A stretch of DNA of 64,000 bases from Algisphaera agarilytica (GTDB taxonomy: Bacteria > Planctomycetota > Phycisphaerae > Phycisphaerales > Phycisphaeraceae): assembly GCF_014207595.1 (NCBI RefSeq), contig NZ_JACHGY010000001.1, positions 1,054,001 through 1,118,000 of the forward strand, given 5' to 3'. Position numbers and translations under genes: made by a program. This document shows, piece by piece, positions 17,179 through 32,932 of the stretch (positions within the stretch are counted from its first letter, which is position 1; each line of letters opens with the position of its first letter). The notes under the pieces were generated by a model, which did not search any database, had not been told where the DNA came from, and saw nothing but the letters and a program-made list of their open reading frames with translations.

Positions 17179-17899
17179 CGGTCTATTCCAATTTGTAGGT
17201 GCTCGATGAATCTCGCCGAATGACCCGAAGCTTGTGATCGATCCATGAATTTCGTGATGATCCTTCAGGGAAGGATACAGGATTAAGCCGCAACATCGGC
17301 TCGTCACGCAGGCAATTCAGGTTAATCCTTGAAATGTGAGGAGAAGAGGTCGGCAAGTGAGTTCAAGCGGCCGACCGGTAGTAGTGCTTGAGCAAACCGC
17401 CCAATTCCGATCGACAACCGATCTTACCAACGACCGCTTGTTCTTGAGCTAGACCCAATGATGGCATATCCGACGCGTCGAGCGTTCGATTCCCTAGGCT
17501 TTGGTGCGGCCGATGATCATTGTAGAACCCACCGAAAGTCTGCACGAGGAAATCTGAATGCTTGAGGCTGAAGCACGCGAAGTAGTCCAAGCACTCTCGC
17601 TTGATGGTTGAGATCCATGACTCTGCATATGCGTTGGCATTGGGCGCTCTTACCGGCGACTTCACAACGTCGATACCGGATGAATTCTCGAACAATGCGC
17701 CAAACGTATCCGTGAACTTCGTGTCCCGGTCGTGAATTAGATGCGTTGCTCTAAGGCGGCCTGTTCCATAATGTAGGCGATCGATGAGTTTTACCAGATC
17801 GCTAACGACATGCTGCATATTAGTCTGATCTTCAAAGATCAGGCCATAAGCGAAGTAAACATAACCCCGGTTCTCGCTAGCAATACATAGATAACTCAT
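17179..17899 (-). mobile_element. Truncated IS element (right end and transposase 3' part)
   Basis: At 17180 the sequence GGTCTATTCCAATTTGTAGG matches the right end of the complete IS at 46.4-47.8 kb, and the following region encodes the C-terminal half of the same transposase type. The left half is missing, and the remnant stops against the ABC exporter gene. A second copy of the end motif (GGCCTGTTCCATAATGTAGG) lies inside at about 17758-17788, exactly where resemblance to the complete transposase begins. Confidence 0.75.
17363..17899 (-). pseudogene. Transposase C-terminal fragment (rve/DDE integrase core)
   Basis: 178 codons open. From residue about 50 on, the sequence (ATHLIHDRDTKF, AYAESWISTIKRECLDYF, FYNDHRPHQSLGNRTLD, CRSELGGLLKHYYRSAA) is closely alike to the end of the 365-residue transposase at 46632, including the second Asp and the catalytic Glu. 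The HTH region and first catalytic Asp are missing. The first 48 residues do not match that transposase and may be foreign sequence. The ATG overlaps the ABC gene stop as ATGA, probably by chance after truncation. It cannot be an active transposase. Confidence 0.8.
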
Positions 17900-23279: not shown

Positions 23280-24629
23280 TCAGCCCTTAAGTCCCGACAT
23301 CGAGACTCCCTCGACAAAAGTTCGCTGGGCCATAAAGAATAAGATCAAGACGGGCATTACGATCAAACAGCTTGCAGCCATCAGGAGGTGCCACTGCGTT
23401 CCCCCGTGCTGGCTTTGGAAAAACTGCAGGCCTAAAGCAAGAGTAAAATCACTTTGATCCGTCAAGTAAATCAATGGACCCAGGTAGTCGTTCCACGTAG
23501 CAAGGAACTGGAAAAGCGCCACAACCGTTAATGCGGGCTTCGCTAAGGGGAGGATGATCTGCCAAAAGATCCGCCATTCATTGCAACCGTCGATGCGCGC
23601 CGCCTCGGATAGCTCTTTGGGAATCGTTCGAAAAAACTGCCTCAGCAGAAACACGTTGAAAGCCGATGCGAAAAACGCAGGCACCCACAATGGTTTGAGC
23701 GTTCCGATCCAACCAAGCTCGCGGAACAACCCGTACAGCGGGACCATGGTGACCGGGAACGGTATCATCATGGTGGCTAACACGATCACAAATATTTTGT
23801 CTCGGCCAGGCCAATCGATCCTTGAGAACCCATAGGCCACCACGGCGCTCGAAAAAACCGTGCCTCCGACCGTTAGCACACAGAGGATTAGCGTGTTGGA
23901 TAGATAGCGAGGAAACTGCCCCATCTCTTCTACTGCCTGACCGAAGTTGCCCCAGCGCACGTCTGCGCTAGATCGCAGTGATTCCAACGAAACAAAACGG
24001 GCCTCCGTCTCCGTATGGGCTAAGCGTTTACGATCATCCCAAGCGATGTATCGTTTTTCCAACGTCTCCATACCGACTTCGATTTCTCGGGCAAAGCTAT
24101 AAGAACGCTGTGTGGCACGCTGAGTTTGGTCGTAGTGCAGCACAAGGTCTTTCCGCATCACTTTATGTGGGAAGCCCATGACCTCTGATTCGTAGATGTA
24201 CACCCGGACCAAGTCTTCGTCGGCTATACCTTCGATAGGCTCCAAAATGCGGACAGGACGATCGTCGTGCGCAATACTCCGCCAGTGTGCGTTGATCTTA
24301 TGAGTTGAGTTCAGGACCTTGTCCGAAACAAGCACGGGAACCGCATCGCCACCACGATCAACCACCCACTGGTATGCAAAGTTGACCTCGACAGAATCGT
24401 CGCCTGCCGAAACCGCGGCGTCGTAACTCTGCTGATCGACATGGACAAAAACTGTCTGGCCCGACTCTGCCACATCCCAACTCACCGGAATCCACTGAGG
24501 CGGCATTGTCATGGTTTGCTCGGCTGGTTTCACCGCGGTCACAAACATCCAAGCCAACGGCATCAAGAACACCAATGCGCCGATTGTGAGCAAGACGAAT
24601 CTCAGGAGTTGTAAGCCTTTAAATCGCAT
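23280..24629 (-). CDS. Sugar ABC importer permease, MalG-like, with large insertion
   Basis: 449 residues, against about 280 for ordinary MalG-type permeases. A first membrane helix (residues about 8-30) is followed by roughly 190 residues of soluble, charged sequence (from PAEQTMTMPP to about VEEMGQFPRY), then the normal five-helix permease core with the EAA loop EAARIDGCNEWRIFWQIILP and C-terminal GLKG. The soluble part should lie on the outer face of the inner membrane, since it sits in the first loop. It is read one base after the stop of the partner permease, so coupled. No ATPase gene is adjacent; a shared MsmX-type ATPase elsewhere is likely. Confidence 0.9.
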   Translation of the reverse strand: MRFKGLQLLRFVLLTIGALVFLMPLAWMFVTAVKPAEQTMTMPPQWIPVSWDVAESGQTVFVHVDQQSYDAAVSAGDDSVEVNFAYQWVVDRGGDAVPVLVSDKVLNSTHKINAHWRSIAHDDRPVRILEPIEGIADEDLVRVYIYESEVMGFPHKVMRKDLVLHYDQTQRATQRSYSFAREIEVGMETLEKRYIAWDDRKRLAHTETEARFVSLESLRSSADVRWGNFGQAVEEMGQFPRYLSNTLILCVLTVGGTVFSSAVVAYGFSRIDWPGRDKIFVIVLATMMIPFPVTMVPLYGLFRELGWIGTLKPLWVPAFFASAFNVFLLRQFFRTIPKELSEAARIDGCNEWRIFWQIILPLAKPALTVVALFQFLATWNDYLGPLIYLTDQSDFTLALGLQFFQSQHGGTQWHLLMAASCLIVMPVLILFFMAQRTFVEGVSMSGLKG

Positions 24630-24630
24630 A

Positions 24631-25515
24631 TTATTCGCCTGCGTAATACACGTGGCGGCTTACGAGACGATTTGCCGCCCACGTTAATCCCAAGATGATG
24701 AGAAAGAGAACAACGGCCATCGCGCAGGCGTACCCCATGTTGCTGTACTGAAAAGCATTTTGATAGATGTAGACCGCGTAGAACAACGCCGAGCGATCCG
24801 GGCCGCCGTCAGGCATCATGACGAAGGGCTTCACAAATTCTTGTACCCCAGCAATGATGCCCATGATCAGGTTGAAGTAGAGGACCGGCGAAACCACCGG
24901 AACCGTGATGTGCCAAAACTGGTTAAACGGCCCCGCCCCATCAATGTCCGCCGACTCGTACAAGGAACGTGGCACATCCTGAAGGCCGGCGAGGAACAAG
25001 ACCATCGATCCGCCGATCTGCCAGACGGAAGACATAATCAGCATCGGCTTGGTCCATGCGGGGTCGCCGGTCCACTGCGGCCCCTCAATACCCACCAAAG
25101 TCAACGCATGGTTGATTAATCCCAAGTCGCCATTGAAGAGCCAGATCCAGATCATGCCCACCGCCACCAGCGGCACGATTGCCGGGATGTAGTAGCAGGT
25201 GCGGAATACAGAACGGCCCAAGATCGGACGGTTCAATAGCACCGCCACAACCAACGACAAGCCCAGCGACATCGGAACCGCGAATAACGAGTAGACCATG
25301 GTGTTCCACAAGGCCCGCCAGAACACGCCGTCGACCACCATCTCGCGGTAATTCATACTGCCGACCCAGACGGGCTTACGTAGGACGTCGTAATCGGTGA
25401 ACGAGTAGTAGACTGCCATGCCGATCGGGTAAAGGCTGAAAACCAGCGCGCCGATGACCCAAGGGCTCACGAATAGCAGGCCGGAGGTCAAGCGCCGGCG
25501 GGTATCGCGTGTCAT
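24631..25515 (-). CDS. Sugar ABC importer permease, MalF/UgpA-like
   Basis: 294 residues from ATG 25515 (MTRDTRRRLTSGLLFVSPW); this start overlaps the binding-protein stop as ATGA. Six membrane helices, with an EAA-type loop, YESADIDGAGPFNQFWHITVP, before the last two. It forms the importer channel with the 449-residue permease, fed by the lipoprotein encoded just upstream. Family is firm; sugar specificity is not visible but the cluster contains a beta-mannosidase, so manno-oligosaccharides are a candidate. Confidence 0.93.
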   Translation of the reverse strand: MTRDTRRRLTSGLLFVSPWVIGALVFSLYPIGMAVYYSFTDYDVLRKPVWVGSMNYREMVVDGVFWRALWNTMVYSLFAVPMSLGLSLVVAVLLNRPILGRSVFRTCYYIPAIVPLVAVGMIWIWLFNGDLGLINHALTLVGIEGPQWTGDPAWTKPMLIMSSVWQIGGSMVLFLAGLQDVPRSLYESADIDGAGPFNQFWHITVPVVSPVLYFNLIMGIIAGVQEFVKPFVMMPDGGPDRSALFYAVYIYQNAFQYSNMGYACAMAVVLFLIILGLTWAANRLVSRHVYYAGE

Positions 25516-26915
25516 TGCTCCGCCCACTCTTTCATCCGCTGTTCGCCAGTCAGGGCCCACCTCTGGCATTCCCGGTCGAACTTGCGCTGGATGCGCCGAC
25601 CGGCATCCGACAAAGCCTCTTCCGGCTCAGCCAACCCCGTATACACACGATTCGCCGCCAGAGCCAACTCGTCGCGGTACTCGCTCCAGATCGACAGCTT
25701 TGGAATCGGTTCGGCGTGCGGGCTGCTAGCAAGTTCGATAAACACACCGATTGCTGGATTTGGGTGATCTTCAATAAAGCTGTCAGAATATGCTGCGAGT
25801 GGACTGAACTTGCGGTGGCCAAGGCAAAGCTTTTCGATAGCGGGCCGACTTGCAAGGTATTTCATGAACTCAAACGCTTCGTCGATGTTCTTGGCTCCGC
25901 GTGGAATGACCACAACATCGCTGCTAATCAGGCTAATGTTTTGACCAATCAGATCACCTTTAGCCGGAAACGGCGCGGCGCCCCAATCCAAGGCCGGGGC
26001 GTATTGATCGATGAAGTTGTACATCCACACCCCCTGCATCACCATGGCGACCCGGCCATCCAAAAATGGGTTCTGCGGCGAAGCAAATTCGCCTGTCGAG
26101 TCGCCGAAGCGTTGGTAGTTCACGATGCCGTACTTCTCGGTGTAGCTCCCAAACCAGCTCATTGCTTCGATGTTTGCTGGGTGTGTGGCGGTGACCACAT
26201 CACCACCGTCCCAAAGCTCGGCCCCAAACCAAGCCCCCCACTGCTCGTTCCACCAGCCCGGCTCGTTTGGATTGAAGCCCACACGCAATAACCGAAAATC
26301 TTTTGCAGCTTTTTCTTGCTCGGTGAGCTCGGGGTAGTAAAGCTGAACCGGCTCGCCCCCACGGATCACCTCCACGTAAGTGAGTCGCTCGGCCATTTCG
26401 TCGAGCTCAGCCAAAGTGACAGGTGGAATCTCGGGGTCCAGTCCCGCTTCACGGAACATGGCTTTGTTCCAATGCAAAGCAGTGGTAGCCGGGGTGGTGG
26501 GCAAAGCCCACATGAATCCACGGTGCTCGCAAAGGCTCCATAGCGATGGAAGGTAATCTTGCTTTTGAATCCCGCCTTGTTCCAGTCGGCGGTTGAGCGG
26601 TGTCAGCGCTCCTTTTTCTGCCAGGGTCGCGACGTTGCGGTCCCACAAGCCTGCAAGATCGGGTGGGTTTCCTCCTGCCGTCGCCAAGAGCAGTTTGTGC
26701 TCGATCTGACTTACTGTAAGGCGTTGGACGAAGATGCGGTCTTGCGAGACATTGAAATCGTCGATGACCGATTGGATGGCGTCTCCCTCAAATCCTGCCC
26801 ACTTCTCCCAATACGTCACAATGATCCGTCCGTCGGGCGTGTATTCGGGGTCTGAGCCACTGCAACCGGTCATAAAACAAGACAGGAAAAGGATATGTGT
26901 CAAAATCAAGCGCAT
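25512..26915 (-). CDS. Sugar ABC importer substrate-binding lipoprotein
   Basis: 467 residues from ATG 26915, preceded by AGGA; the frame extends upstream to 27035 but this start gives a lipoprotein signal (LILTHILFLSCFMTGC, lipid-attached Cys). The mature part (IIVTYWEKWAGFEGDAIQSV) is a family 1 extracellular solute-binding protein with the WNKAMFREAGLDP block. It would be anchored to a membrane and deliver oligosaccharides to the two downstream permeases. First gene of the three-gene unit; the promoter region at 26916-27047 is shared with a divergent secreted-protein gene. Confidence 0.93.
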   Translation of the reverse strand: MRLILTHILFLSCFMTGCSGSDPEYTPDGRIIVTYWEKWAGFEGDAIQSVIDDFNVSQDRIFVQRLTVSQIEHKLLLATAGGNPPDLAGLWDRNVATLAEKGALTPLNRRLEQGGIQKQDYLPSLWSLCEHRGFMWALPTTPATTALHWNKAMFREAGLDPEIPPVTLAELDEMAERLTYVEVIRGGEPVQLYYPELTEQEKAAKDFRLLRVGFNPNEPGWWNEQWGAWFGAELWDGGDVVTATHPANIEAMSWFGSYTEKYGIVNYQRFGDSTGEFASPQNPFLDGRVAMVMQGVWMYNFIDQYAPALDWGAAPFPAKGDLIGQNISLISSDVVVIPRGAKNIDEAFEFMKYLASRPAIEKLCLGHRKFSPLAAYSDSFIEDHPNPAIGVFIELASSPHAEPIPKLSIWSEYRDELALAANRVYTGLAEPEEALSDAGRRIQRKFDRECQRWALTGEQRMKEWAEQ

Positions 26916-27007
26916 GATTGATTCCTGCGTCTTGAATTCGGGATGGAGATCTACGGCTTGAAACACTTTACAGATGATAAAATACCACTTAACTAAAGTA
27001 AACCGAT

Positions 27008-27035
27008 ACAGTATAATTTTAGCATCCTGTGTCAA
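27008..27035 (-). promoter_or_regulatory. Candidate promoter of the sugar importer operon
   Basis: On the minus strand TTGACA (27035-27030) is followed after 16 bases by TACTGT (27013-27008), a good -35 with a weak -10. ATTTTAG and ACTAAAG elements, recurring at other promoters of this window, flank or overlap it. It lies about 95 bp before the binding-protein ATG. Confidence 0.45.
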
Positions 27036-27047
27036 CCCCTTCTCTTT

Positions 27048-29177
27048 TTGATTGGCAAGCCCTTGCGCCGACTCAGATTCAAGCTAGCAGTACTGGCCGC
27101 CTCTTTGGCCTGCCTACTTACAGTCAACAGCAGATCAAGCGAAGTACCCGCGCCGTTGTCGACAGATACCCAGGACTGGTTTGGCTGGAATGGAGAGAAG
27201 CTGGCCGAGCCCCACGCAAAGAAATCCGACGCTAATCGTGGTTTGCACATCAGATCAGGAGGGCTCAAGAATCATGCAGTCTTCCTGAAGCAGCCACTCG
27301 AAGGAGCTTTCGATTTATCGATCTCACTCGAGCCCTTTGATGGCACAGCAACCCATGGCGTCATCCTCGCGGAGAATCGCTCAGGCATGCCGGATCCAAG
27401 CAACTGGGTAGCCATCGAACGCCTGCCGTCTGATGGCCACGTCGCAGTGCGAATCCACGGGGTTCGCGATGGGCAACCAATCGAAATTCAGCCGCCGCGG
27501 CTGGCCCTCATTGAAGATGGATCGAGCGAGGACACCCTTCGTGATTCGATAGCACGCGGAATCCTATTCCCGCCTGACGATCCACCACGGTTGCGGGTCA
27601 TGCGAAACACCCTGGGGGGGGTGTTTCATTTTTTGTTTTCAGACCACCGTCTAATTGATGGGGAGATGGCTCGTGGCTGGTCGGAGCTTCCCACCCTTAG
27701 CGACCGCGATGGAGCTGCGTATTTCTTTGGTGTATACGCAAGCGATCTCTCGCCAAACCAATACGCGGTGTTCTCTTCTCCAACATCTTCGCCGATGCCG
27801 GCTACCGATAACCATCCATCCGACCAATATTTTGGAGCCAATCGCCGCGGCTATACCTGGGCCGGCTACCACGGCGACGCGGTTGTGGTGAGTTTCGACG
27901 AACGGGCCGATTGGCCAGACGCAAAGTTCGTATTCTGGTCCGAAGCGAACTATATCCCGTGGTGGCATATCAACGATCACGTATCACTGACTTACGAATT
28001 TGTTGAAATTTGGGGAGGGGGTACGGTCGGCTGTAACGAGCCTATGTCAGACCACCTCCTGCGGTGGACCCGGGCTAAGATCATTGAATCTAATCCCGCC
28101 CGCGTGGTGGTTCAGTGGGACTACACCCTTATTACCAGCAACTACCAGTGGTGGAACAGCCACCCCAGCATCCGCCCCACAGTCCGGGAAACGTTCACGT
28201 TCTATCCCGATGGCGTAGGGGTGCGCAAGGTGACCTATCGGCCGCCTCTCGAAGACAAGGACACGCATCACAAGTGGGGCCACGAACTCGGCGAGATCAT
28301 CGTCAGCTTCGGCGGAGGCAAGTTCAGTCACGATTTTCTCACCACCCCCTCGCTTTCGGTTTTCGACCTTAAAGACGAACGCCACGACTACAGTTGGGAC
28401 ACCAGCAAACCAACCGGAAATACTTGGACCCACCAGACCGAGGGGTGGCCCGCGGTCATCATCCAGAGCAACTTCAAGAAAGGATTGGCTAGCCCGTTTA
28501 TTGCTTTTGCGCAAGATGAGAGAGTACACGAATTCACTTCACCCACTGTGCCGATTCAATTCGGCAGCGACTGGGAGCTCAACGCCTGGCCAGGCCCGGA
28601 AGAGTTCACCGACGATGCCGGACGCCTTGACCTCGGCGGCTTTTCACATTGGCCGGTCATGAAACAACCCTACGATTCGCGTAGCTGGATCGGCAGTACC
28701 GTCTTACGCGAGCCACGGCACCTCTCGCTTATCTCCGTGCTCAGCGGGCCCGGTGGTTACGAATGGCCTGTCGGCCCAAAGAAACGAACCTTCGCCATGC
28801 TGATCGGCCTGAACAACGATCCACAAAGCGGCGAGGCCAACGCCCGGAAGCTGACTCGATCCTGGATTTACCCCGGCCGCGTCTCAAACGTAACTACAGA
28901 TTTTGAATTTGCCTCATTTGATTATTACGAACGGGCAATACGCTTCCGCGCGACCGGCGAATCCTCCAGGCTACAGTTCACATTGACCCCCGAAGCCGAT
29001 ATCCACCACCCCGTAATCATCGTCGAAGACTGGAAGCTCGCAACCCAAGAGGTCAAGGTTACGATCAATGGCACCTCGCTCTCAAAATCCAAATACGCTG
29101 CGGCCATCGAAAATGGCAGACTGATTCTTTGGCTTGATACGTCCATCCGGCAAGCCACATCGATCCAGATCGAGTAG
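27048..29177 (+). CDS. Large secreted protein of unrecognised family (709 aa)
   Basis: Begins at TTG 27048 or TTG 27063; either gives a signal peptide (RFKLAVLAASLACLLTVNS). The mature protein shows, from about residue 75, a region with beta-strand character (AFDLSISLEPFDGTATHGVI), then YFGANRRGYTWAGYHGDAVV, IPWWHINDHVSLTYEFVEIW, YQWWNSHPSIRPTVRETF and HHKWGHELGEIIVSFGGG, rich in aromatic and His residues as in polysaccharide-degrading or binding proteins. I recognise no named family; I make no enzymatic claim. It is divergent from the sugar importer and convergent with the beta-mannosidase, so it belongs to this glycan cluster by position. No PEP-CTERM tail. Confidence 0.75.
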   Translation: MIGKPLRRLRFKLAVLAASLACLLTVNSRSSEVPAPLSTDTQDWFGWNGEKLAEPHAKKSDANRGLHIRSGGLKNHAVFLKQPLEGAFDLSISLEPFDGTATHGVILAENRSGMPDPSNWVAIERLPSDGHVAVRIHGVRDGQPIEIQPPRLALIEDGSSEDTLRDSIARGILFPPDDPPRLRVMRNTLGGVFHFLFSDHRLIDGEMARGWSELPTLSDRDGAAYFFGVYASDLSPNQYAVFSSPTSSPMPATDNHPSDQYFGANRRGYTWAGYHGDAVVVSFDERADWPDAKFVFWSEANYIPWWHINDHVSLTYEFVEIWGGGTVGCNEPMSDHLLRWTRAKIIESNPARVVVQWDYTLITSNYQWWNSHPSIRPTVRETFTFYPDGVGVRKVTYRPPLEDKDTHHKWGHELGEIIVSFGGGKFSHDFLTTPSLSVFDLKDERHDYSWDTSKPTGNTWTHQTEGWPAVIIQSNFKKGLASPFIAFAQDERVHEFTSPTVPIQFGSDWELNAWPGPEEFTDDAGRLDLGGFSHWPVMKQPYDSRSWIGSTVLREPRHLSLISVLSGPGGYEWPVGPKKRTFAMLIGLNNDPQSGEANARKLTRSWIYPGRVSNVTTDFEFASFDYYERAIRFRATGESSRLQFTLTPEADIHHPVIIVEDWKLATQEVKVTINGTSLSKSKYAAAIENGRLILWLDTSIRQATSIQIE

Positions 29178-29287
29178 TCACTGCCCAGAGAAGTACCAAG
29201 CCCTAGCCTGCTAGAGCCGACCAGCCCCAATAACGTTACAGATGTTCCCCTAATCGGCTCATCCGCTTCGAGCCATGTACACAAGAA

Positions 29288-29334
29288 AACCCTGACTGCA
29301 TCTAAAGCGAACCGCTTCGTAGACAGTCAGGGTT
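29288..29334. terminator. Bidirectional terminator between convergent genes
   Basis: AACCCTGACTG (29288-29298) pairs perfectly with CAGTCAGGGTT (29324-29334); the loop has an inner pairing AAGCG/CGCTT. It sits in the gap between the stops of the secreted-protein gene (plus) and the beta-mannosidase gene (minus), where a two-way terminator is expected. T tracts are short on both sides. Confidence 0.65.
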
Positions 29335-29371
29335 ATCTCGGAGGCCGGGTCCCCACCCGCGATGGCCTTAC

Positions 29372-31900
29372 TCAGTTGGCATAGGTATTAAGAAGATGCT
29401 TAACCTCAAGCTTCTGAATGAATTGCTCATGATCCAAAGGCTGATTTACTTTGACATGAACTGTTTTGGGCTGCCCCCCTCGCAGGTGGAAGAAATTATC
29501 GCTGCATCGCAAATCAACCTCGGGATGCGTCAACCAGACCCAAGCGGCACACCGCTCAGCCTTAATTGTCACATCAAAACCACTCTTGTTTGCTTCACAC
29601 CCGACGACAGCCAACTCCGGATTGCTTAGACCCATGTGCTTGGGGCGCTCAAAGAATAGATTGGCAGACAAGACATCTTGAGCGTCTTCCGGCTCGAATT
29701 CAAGCCAAAGTGCCACAGAACTTTTGCCGTATTCTGCCAGCTGATCCGCGAGATCGATCCAATACACTGGTCGGCCCATCATCGGCTTTGCGGTAATCTC
29801 GGCCTCCCCCGACTTAATGGCTTCGCCAGTCAAAGCTGTGAGTGTCCACGTCAGCCTACCCTTCACCCAACGAGATTCTTCGTGCGTGAGATGAACTTCC
29901 ACGACACCATCTTTTGCGGAAACCACCGAAAGCAGGCGCGGAGCAAAACTCCGCCTCATCACATAATGAAGCCCCTTCCATCTCCCGTAATAGTCGATGG
30001 ACGACCAACTCGGCCCGGGCCACACGTCGTTGAGCTGCCAATACAATGCACCCATGGTTCGTGGAGCACAACGTCGCCAGTGTTCAACAGCAGTTTGGAC
30101 GCAATGAGACTGAAGGATCTGGGTCAACCACAGCGTGTGTTCAAAATCGTGCGGCAGCTTGAACCAACGCGCCAGATCATACATGATCCGCCCCGTGCCA
30201 GCTCCCGCGCGTTGGCGGTGGTCCACCACTTGCGAACACAGATTGCCGTCTCCAAGAGAGTGATCAATCACCGCAGCCATCGTCTTTGGCTCGGGGAAGC
30301 CCTGGAAGCCAAACTCGCTCGCAAAACGCGGTGCGGTTTCGCGATACCAATCGATATCTTCGCCAGAGTGCCATACGCCCCAGACATGGTTATCCCCACT
30401 GCGCTCGTCCATGACGTCGATGCGATCCCCGATGGTCTTGAGCGGACTACAAGGCCAGTACGTCGTATCGGGGGCGTTCTCCTTAACCACGGTTCCCAGC
30501 ATGCCATCAAAATCGAAGAACGGAAGGTACTGCTCCCATGACATCTTGCCGTTACCCGGGGTATCGGCCATATTCAGCCATTCGAGCTCGTTGTTTCCGC
30601 ACCACAGACAAATCGATGCGCGATGGTTTAAACGCTGCGTGGCTTGAATTGCTTCTTGGCGAACGTTCTCGATAAAGCTTGGATCAGTCGTCGGATATGG
30701 CGCACAGGCGAACATAAAGTCCTGCCAAACGCAGAGTCCGAGCTCATCGCAGATATCGTAGAACTCCTCAGACTCGTAAACCCCTCCGCCCCACACCCGG
30801 ATCATGTTCATATTGGCATCGACGGCATCACCCAGAAGTGACCGGATACGGCCTTTAGGGATGCGAGAAGGAATCACATCGGCTGGGATCCAATTGGCAC
30901 CTTTGGCAAAAAAACGCCGTCCGTTGGCTTCAAACGCAAAAGATTCACCCCATTCGTCGGCCTCCCGAACGAGCTTAAACTCACGAAGACCGATATGACG
31001 GCGAGCAACATCGAATACACCGCCCAATTCATCACGCAACTCTATCTCTACGTCATAGAGCGGCTGCTCGCCCATACCCGCCGGCCACCAGAGCTCGGGC
31101 TGCTCGATTAAAAGCTCGGCGTCCAAAACTCCATCTTTAGACTCAACATCACAGGAGGCAACCTCCATACCCAGTCGAGTGATCTTGATCTTCGATCGCA
31201 ACGCTGAATAGCCCTCGAACTGAGACAAAGGCGCCTCAACCCTAACCACTACGCCCTTCTGGCTATGTTGCTGACGGACACCCACTCTTTCCAAACGAGG
31301 AGTATCAAGCGCTACGAGGCGAATCGGTGCGTGTATACCCGAGGTCACGATCATCGGACCCCAATCCCATCCAAACTGCGACTGCTGCTTTCGGATCCAC
31401 GCACGCCCTTTCGCATCGGGCAAGTCCCAGAAAACATGCGGGATTGGAGCCTGCTTAATTTTTTCAAGACTGTAATTCACCGAAGATTCAAAAAAGACCT
31501 GAATCGAGTTTTCTCCAGCTACCAACGCCTGACGGACATCAAAGCGCCACCGACGGAACATGTTATTCGCGGCCCCGCACTCTTCCCCATTGACTACCAC
31601 ACGGGCGAGCGTATCCAAACCCTCGCAATCAAGTGCAACGCAGTTATACGACAGCCAGTCTTTGCTCACATCAAATACACGCTCGTAAACCCAGTCTGTC
31701 TTACCAACCCACTGGACCTGGTGCTCGTTCATGCGGTAATAGGGATCGGGCACCAATCCTGCGGCAAGTAAATCCGCATGTACACACCCAGGGACCTGCC
31801 CAGGGAGGTCGTACTGGCCGTCTTTGCTACGAAGAGACCAAGTGCCGCCCAAGTCAAGCACTTGGGCGGTGTCGGCATGAGACGTTAAGTTGGCTGTCAT
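29372..31900 (-). CDS. GH2 beta-mannosidase
   Basis: 842 residues, typical of GH2 beta-mannosidases. The N-terminal sugar-binding domain has LDLGGTWSLRSKDG and VPGCVHADLLAAGLVPDPYYR, both hallmarks of the mannosidase branch. Acid/base E438 lies in WCGNNELEW and nucleophile E529 in FASEFGFQGFP. No signal peptide: a cytoplasmic exo-enzyme releasing mannose from beta-1,4 manno-oligosaccharides. Its start follows the LacI gene stop by 6 bp, so the two are co-transcribed. The nearby importer probably supplies its substrate. Confidence 0.95.
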   Translation of the reverse strand: MTANLTSHADTAQVLDLGGTWSLRSKDGQYDLPGQVPGCVHADLLAAGLVPDPYYRMNEHQVQWVGKTDWVYERVFDVSKDWLSYNCVALDCEGLDTLARVVVNGEECGAANNMFRRWRFDVRQALVAGENSIQVFFESSVNYSLEKIKQAPIPHVFWDLPDAKGRAWIRKQQSQFGWDWGPMIVTSGIHAPIRLVALDTPRLERVGVRQQHSQKGVVVRVEAPLSQFEGYSALRSKIKITRLGMEVASCDVESKDGVLDAELLIEQPELWWPAGMGEQPLYDVEIELRDELGGVFDVARRHIGLREFKLVREADEWGESFAFEANGRRFFAKGANWIPADVIPSRIPKGRIRSLLGDAVDANMNMIRVWGGGVYESEEFYDICDELGLCVWQDFMFACAPYPTTDPSFIENVRQEAIQATQRLNHRASICLWCGNNELEWLNMADTPGNGKMSWEQYLPFFDFDGMLGTVVKENAPDTTYWPCSPLKTIGDRIDVMDERSGDNHVWGVWHSGEDIDWYRETAPRFASEFGFQGFPEPKTMAAVIDHSLGDGNLCSQVVDHRQRAGAGTGRIMYDLARWFKLPHDFEHTLWLTQILQSHCVQTAVEHWRRCAPRTMGALYWQLNDVWPGPSWSSIDYYGRWKGLHYVMRRSFAPRLLSVVSAKDGVVEVHLTHEESRWVKGRLTWTLTALTGEAIKSGEAEITAKPMMGRPVYWIDLADQLAEYGKSSVALWLEFEPEDAQDVLSANLFFERPKHMGLSNPELAVVGCEANKSGFDVTIKAERCAAWVWLTHPEVDLRCSDNFFHLRGGQPKTVHVKVNQPLDHEQFIQKLEVKHLLNTYAN

Positions 31901-31906
31901 TCTTAC

Positions 31907-32932
31907 TTATTCTTTCACGCGGGTTGAATCCCTCTGAACCAGCTTTCCCGGCACCCGCAGATGGACCAATGGCTGAGGCTTGTCTATGAGCTGCAAAACT
32001 CGATCAAAGGCATGAGCCCCGATTGCATGTAGGTCGATGTGGATAGTAGTCAGAGCCGGACGCAGGTAACGGACCGGCTCAATATCGTCGAAGCCCACGA
32101 TGCTGAGGTCGCCCGGGATTTCAAGCCCCGCGTCATGAGCAGCATCGTAAGCCCCGATCGCCAGATAGTCCCCACCAGCAAACACCGCAGTGACGCCACT
32201 CGATCTCGACAGAACATTCGCTAGTGCGGTGCGGCCTCCGGGCGGTGAGAAGTCTTGGAACTCCACGAGATCTTCGTCCAACTCGATACCGGCTTCTTGC
32301 ACCGCCATGCGATAGCCCAAATACCGTTCCTGAGCATCAACATTGTCAACGTTACCGCCCAAAAAAGCGATCCGGCTGTGCCCTAGTTCAATCAAGTGCC
32401 GGGTCGCCAGCCATGAACCCTCGATGTTCTCCGGGCGGACCGAGTCGGCCACCACGTGTGGCGTCGAGGGAGAAACCATCACCGTAGGCTTGCTCGATTT
32501 GGATATCGAACGCAATATCTCCAAGGAGGGGCGCCCCGTGATCAAGCACCCATCCAACGCATCAAGATTTACTTGAGGCGGCAGCTTCCCGGCTGTGTCG
32601 GGCTCGGGGACCTGGAAAAACGAAAGCCTGGCCCCGAGTTTTTGCGCATGAATCGAAGCCCCAGCCAAGACCTGACCGTAGTAGCTGTGGCTGCTATCCG
32701 CCCAGGCGTCAAACGCTAGAAATCCATATTGACCGATTTCCCCCTGAGAATCCCGTCCACCTAGACGACGAGCAGCGGTATTCGGTCGAAAGCCAAGATC
32801 TTTGATGGCCTTGCGGATCCGGTCACGTGTCTGATCCGAAACCCCCCGGCGGTTGTTGATGACCAACGAGACCGCCGACTTCGAGACACCGCAGCGCTCC
32901 GCAACTTCTTTGATACCTACTTTTTCCGACAT
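31907..32932 (-). CDS. LacI-family transcriptional regulator (mannosidase operon)
   Basis: 341 residues. N-terminal HTH and hinge: IKEVAERCGVSKSAVSLVIN, then LGFRPNTAARRLGG. The sugar-binding core follows, with IAFLGGNVDNVDAQERYLGY and LSIVGFDDIEPVRYLRPALTTI, typical of GalR/LacI proteins. It is the first gene of a two-gene unit with beta-mannosidase, which suggests an autoregulated local repressor. Its promoter at 32991-33019 contains CTAAA elements that could be its operator and that recur near the sugar importer and other genes here. Confidence 0.93.
   Translation of the reverse strand: MSEKVGIKEVAERCGVSKSAVSLVINNRRGVSDQTRDRIRKAIKDLGFRPNTAARRLGGRDSQGEIGQYGFLAFDAWADSSHSYYGQVLAGASIHAQKLGARLSFFQVPEPDTAGKLPPQVNLDALDGCLITGRPSLEILRSISKSSKPTVMVSPSTPHVVADSVRPENIEGSWLATRHLIELGHSRIAFLGGNVDNVDAQERYLGYRMAVQEAGIELDEDLVEFQDFSPPGGRTALANVLSRSSGVTAVFAGGDYLAIGAYDAAHDAGLEIPGDLSIVGFDDIEPVRYLRPALTTIHIDLHAIGAHAFDRVLQLIDKPQPLVHLRVPGKLVQRDSTRVKE

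Follow-up and report, generated by a model that had tools for sequence, protein, structure and literature searches.

A predicted supersandwich protein of an unnamed family beside a beta-mannosidase gene of Algisphaera agarilytica

What is the 709-residue protein encoded between a sugar importer and a beta-mannosidase of Algisphaera agarilytica, and what might it do to a glycan? The window, the whole 64,000-nucleotide stretch analyzed here, contains its gene at the place that the sequence-only reading gave (27048-29177), as an intact ORF on the plus strand with a TTG start and no internal stop. It is a single copy in the 4.17-Mb genome. Because homologues align nearly full length at 29 to 33% identity, these alignments place it beyond doubt as a genuine gene. 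The N terminus, MIGKPLRRLRFKLAVLAASLACLLTVNS, looks by eye like a signal peptide, and export is predicted. Relatives in Spartobacteria (L047) and Bacteroidales (L050) have lipoprotein-type leaders, also by eye. The gene and its surroundings are as follows.

23280-24629, minus: MalG-type permease of the ABC sugar importer; a long extra segment precedes the permease domain (Pfam BPD_transp_1 at residues 270-438)
24631-25569, minus: ABC sugar importer permease, MalF type (Pfam BPD_transp_1)
25512-26915, minus: extracellular sugar-binding lipoprotein of the importer (Pfam SBP_bac_1/8)
26916-27047, no strand: intergenic region with divergent promoter-like sites (consensus match only)
27048-27137, plus: signal-peptide-like N terminus, residues 1-30 of the 709-residue protein (by inspection: charged n-region, hydrophobic LAVLAASLACLLTV)
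29284-29338, no strand: inverted repeat between two convergent genes (26 nt, 77% paired)
29372-31900, minus: GH2 beta-mannosidase without an obvious signal peptide, the only one in the genome (Pfam; PDB matches)
31907-32932, minus: LacI-family regulator (Pfam LacI, Peripla_BP_3)

The Pfam-annotated neighbors thus bear out the earlier placement of the gene, with the sugar importer on one side and the beta-mannosidase on the other. The latter matches the PDB beta-mannosidases 6bye (E 6e-152) and 2je8 (E 4e-134). A control region shared by the whole locus had also been proposed, and that holds for one side only. The importer is divergent across a 132-bp gap with promoter-like sites on both strands (plus, 26989-27017; minus, 27002-26974; 2 found versus 0.3 expected), but the beta-mannosidase gene, which precedes the LacI regulator, is convergent with the 709-residue gene. 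A second copy of the candidate operator CTAAAGTAAACCGATA was sought across the window and was not found. The inverted repeat between the convergent genes is a possible bidirectional terminator. The ORF of the binding lipoprotein reaches 27035, and inspection places the lipoprotein start, MRLILTHILFLSCFMTGCSG, at 26915. The MalG-type permease has 449 residues, about 200 of them extra residues after the first hydrophobic segment. The importer (23280-26915) has no adjoining ATPase gene and presumably uses a shared ATPase encoded elsewhere. We read the importer, the cytosolic exo-beta-mannosidase, the LacI regulator, and the secreted glycan protein as a small uptake pathway. Farther off, a fragment resembling a transposase integrase core (17363-17899, minus) adjoins two ABC exporter genes, by eye.

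Direct family assignment by sequence gave nothing significant in Pfam, NCBIfam, or PDB sequences, either with the protein alone or with a 29-member core profile. The protein had been called a member of no recognized family, and by these searches it is one of an unnamed family undescribed in all three collections. Genome searches with a profile gave relatives in 19 of the 248 genomes searched from the class and in 13 of 392 from the phylum, the weakest matches spanning the N-terminal part only. Further relatives are in Spartobacteria and Bacteroidales loci, and the Spartobacteria genome has three family copies. However, a search of 24 other genomes sampled from the same taxonomic family, including two from the same genus, found no homologue. 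The gene is therefore patchy and probably moves horizontally. Plasmids and viral contigs were searched and had no relative. In the tree, one clade (support 100/99) unites the window protein with L047 and L084 of Spartobacteria, L050 of Bacteroidales, and the planctomycete copies L002, L013, and L018; within it, the window protein pairs with L047 (support 95/82). Most planctomycete copies fall in the other clades, and some of them have duplicated cores. The two-core members are L011:256-3600 (minus), L028:742-4092 (plus), L029, L030, and L017; one core is often truncated, and Laminin_G_3 domains precede the cores.

Structure prediction gave the protein an outline. The AF2 models were built on five sequences, and a deeper alignment is likely to raise their confidence. 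The quality of the full-length model is modest (pLDDT 53.6, pTM 0.62), and the core-only model is of moderate confidence (pTM 0.74, pLDDT 63.5). Three domains were delimited.

27186-27800, plus: N-terminal concanavalin-A-like jelly-roll domain, residues about 47-251 (AF2 model; VIA Z 10.2-11.4)
27807-28832, plus: supersandwich (galactose-mutarotase-like) core, residues about 254-595 (AF2, Foldseek, VIA)
28878-29174, plus: C-terminal beta-sandwich, residues about 611-709 (AF2 pLDDT mostly >80)

The modeled N-terminal region has a jelly-roll fold (Z about 11). The best VIA match of this domain (full-length model residues 18-222, window residues 48-252) is 3mep (Z 11.4), which we take to be a DUF1349-type structure, followed by CBM66 and GH43 C-terminal domains. 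The likeness to these concanavalin-A-like domains (residues about 47-251) is one of fold (Z 10.2-11.4); identity is only 10 to 16%, and the 709-residue protein has no Pfam match. The modeled domain also resembles galectins. Other family members have a Pfam Laminin_G_3 domain ahead of the core, and therefore the order of lectin-like domain and then core is conserved in the family. In the moderate-confidence model, the core matches many members of the supersandwich fold group over 208-271 residues (VIA Z 12-13.7). A helix (residues about 596-607) joins it to the C-terminal beta-sandwich. The concanavalin-A-like and supersandwich folds are thus predicted.

The best VIA and Foldseek matches of the core are to the C-terminal domain of GH38 alpha-mannosidases (Z 13.4-13.7, 13.7 at best). 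However, catalysis in GH38 belongs to another domain, which the 709-residue protein lacks. The core and the C-terminal sandwich align together with PL8 hyaluronate/xanthan lyases over about 250 residues (Z about 13; 13.3 for the core). PL8 enzymes have their catalytic residues in an N-terminal helical toroid. This toroid is missing here, where the N-terminal domain is predicted to be all-beta and concanavalin-A-like, and a PL8 Pfam match was sought in the protein and the family members without success. Galactose mutarotase (GalM) shares the core fold (Z 12.4) and is among the Foldseek matches, but the 709-residue protein is predicted to be exported and has extra N- and C-terminal domains. Aldose 1-epimerases have a catalytic Glu/His arrangement; Pfam and NCBIfam scans of the protein and the 29 members gave no aldose-1-epimerase match. 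The fold also occurs in copper amine oxidases.

In the GH186 beta-1,2-glucanases (OpgG/OpgD, MdoG), the catalytic Asp, D388 in EcOpgD numbering, lies in a cleft. Residues 1-348 of the core model align with OpgG (Z 12.7), whereas the N-terminal concanavalin-A-like domain sets the 709-residue protein apart. GH186 membership was considered and rejected: none of the 29 members has PF04349 (MdoG), and hhalign gave probabilities of 0.3% and 0.1% with an MdoG profile of three sequences. The genome has one MdoG (GH186-type) homologue elsewhere (C1:2514807-2516366). In GH186, the supersandwich is itself the catalytic domain, and the best glycoside hydrolase structural match of that family is GH38 2wyh (PMC10514313). 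The top Foldseek matches of the core described here are GH38 2wyi and 2wyh. Because of the GH186 precedent and our reading of the locus, we regard the protein as a probable carbohydrate-active supersandwich enzyme that belongs to no family tested.

Conservation was read from 29 aligned cores that are 18 to 38% identical to the window core.

28005-28052, plus: signature segment E320...C329-x-E331-P-M-S-D335 (E320 in 27/27, E331 in 26/27, D335 in 28/28)
28101-28103, plus: R352, invariant (28/28)
28188-28211, plus: E381...Y386-P387-D388 motif (E381 in 26/29, D388 in 29/29)
28647-28655, plus: H534-W535-P536 motif (H534 in 25/29, P536 in 29/29)
28719-28721, plus: H558, conserved (23/27)

Where aligned, E320, D335, R352, D388, and P536 are invariant, and E331, E381, R393, E416, H534, and H558 are nearly so. 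By their conservation, E320, E331, D335, R352, E381, D388, R393, E416, H534, and H558 resemble the residues of an active site. H534 lies in a stretch of low model confidence (AF2 pLDDT <50 across window residues 489-556). In one relative, L018:751-3054 (plus), E331, E416, H534, and H558 are replaced together with C329 and W535, while E320, D335, R352, and D388 are kept. This joint loss in a single long-branch sequence suggests that the lost residues form one functional unit. It fits the pattern expected of active-site decay, and L018 is possibly a degenerate, noncatalytic member. The sequence-only reading had described stretches rich in Trp, His, and Tyr that looked conserved. Trp (3.7%) and His (3.5%) do exceed the means of 13 window proteins (2.5% and 2.2%), but Tyr (2.7%) does not. 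The stretches are conserved in part: IPWWHIND...YEFVEIW contains the conserved P304 and the invariant E320, and HHKWGHELGEI ends with E416, which is present in 24 of 29 members.

We then asked what the genes beside the family say about its substrate. Glycan genes (GH27, GH31, GH32, sulfatases, SSF transporters, and esterases) are found near many relatives. However, such genes abound in these genomes, and proteins beside the family are sulfatases no more often than those of control regions (3/98 versus 4/98 proteins; for glycosidases, the comparison covers the 25 families listed per tally). General proximity to glycan genes is therefore no evidence, and a broad association of the family with sulfatase or CAZyme clusters was not accepted as such. 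Nor do homologues always lie in CAZyme clusters, a check that the earlier reading had proposed: L049, L051, L064, L068, and L069 are outside them. The window genome itself has 66 sulfatases (E <1e-10) in 4.17 Mb, a count typical of a sulfated-polysaccharide degrader.

The link to beta-mannosidase is specific, more so than this general proximity. The window genome has one PF17753 beta-mannosidase, and it adjoins the 709-residue gene. The Bacteroidales genome has two, and L050 overlaps the end of one by 23 bp, in a locus that is SusC/SusD-like (named by eye). The window and Bacteroidales beta-mannosidases are 33% identical over their full length. PF17753 is absent from 11 of the 17 family-bearing genomes, and a rough post hoc estimate of the joint chance of both adjacencies is about 1e-6. 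The two family proteins fall in the same well-supported clade without being sisters, and the link is present in only two of the seven members of that clade; L048 and L049 are also without it. In another genome (G479), a family member and a beta-mannosidase are 8.5 kb apart; this pair was discounted, as unrelated genes lie between. The locus as a whole is not common to relatives: in one genome of the same taxonomic family (G512), a beta-mannosidase 35% identical to that of the window has neither importer nor homologue beside it. A GH26 mannanase was sought in the window genome and not found. In the Bacteroidales genome, a GH26 mannanase and a GH130 protein share a contig with the other beta-mannosidase, not with that of L050. 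Therefore, with GH26 as the mannanase family searched, no exported protein at the locus other than the 709-residue one is a candidate depolymerase. The two Bacteroidales beta-mannosidase loci, one with GH26 and GH130 and the other with L050 and a gene with a weak DUF4380 match, suggest two different mannose glycans.

The main rival to an enzyme is a protein that only binds, whose supersandwich and jelly-roll domains would capture polysaccharide and pass it to the importer. The supersandwich fold is often noncatalytic, as in the C-terminal domains of GH38 and LacZ, and the folds predicted for the two domains include many proteins that only bind. Several relatives resemble lipoproteins or have multiple domains with repeated Laminin_G_3, and the core is duplicated in some. 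However, the importer comes with a binding protein of its own, the locus has no other depolymerase, and conservation centers on Glu, Asp, Arg, and His rather than on aromatic residues alone. Because the conserved set is acidic/Arg/His, we favor an enzyme and consider a binding-only role rather unlikely.

It is improbable that the protein is an exported one unrelated to sugars that lies between the importer and the beta-mannosidase by chance. The housekeeping surroundings of L049, L051, and L069 and the background level of sulfatases would suit such a protein, but the beta-mannosidase adjacency in two phyla, the lectin-like plus supersandwich architecture, and the absence of both the 709-residue gene and PF17753 from most relatives argue against it. 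Taken literally, the galactose-mutarotase fold would point to a secreted epimerase or mutarotase-like enzyme whose substrates are released sugars. This would account for the GalM matches and for the match beside L050 to DUF4380, a family that we take to be mutarotase-like. Yet GalM is usually cytosolic, a C-terminal sandwich with an N-terminal concanavalin-A-like domain would be unusual for it, and the Pfam result is negative for all 29 members, so we think this reading quite improbable. Of the earlier proposal of a new polysaccharide-active enzyme or binding protein, the glycan role thus gains support from the core fold and the two-phylum adjacency, with the enzyme as the favored half.

We therefore favor an exported enzyme that acts on a beta-mannose-containing glycan taken up by the importer and finished by the GH2 enzyme, at a probability of about 0.5. 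In this model, for which we infer the catalysis, the active-site cleft, the substrate, and the order of the pathway, the signal peptide would place the protein outside the cytoplasm. The jelly-roll N-terminal domain, itself predicted, may bind the glycan. The core, as a glycoside hydrolase or polysaccharide lyase, would cleave or shorten a polysaccharide with beta-linked mannose, with E320, E331, D335, R352, E381, D388, E416, H534, and H558 serving in catalysis. The fragments would enter the cell through the adjoining ABC importer, and the cytosolic beta-mannosidase would complete their breakdown under LacI control. More tentatively, and with some doubt, the protein could represent a new CAZy-level family with a catalytic supersandwich, an endo-depolymerase for a beta-mannose (possibly sulfated or uronic) polysaccharide. 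The genes of such a family would have passed horizontally between Planctomycetota, Verrucomicrobiota, and Bacteroidota.

Sulfatase-rich planctomycetes have many carbohydrate genes without an assigned function. If enzymatic, the 709-residue protein would serve as the depolymerase in a mannose-glycan pathway of these bacteria, and its family would join the small number in which a supersandwich domain is catalytic. Because it is paired with a beta-mannosidase, the list of substrates is short and can be tested directly.
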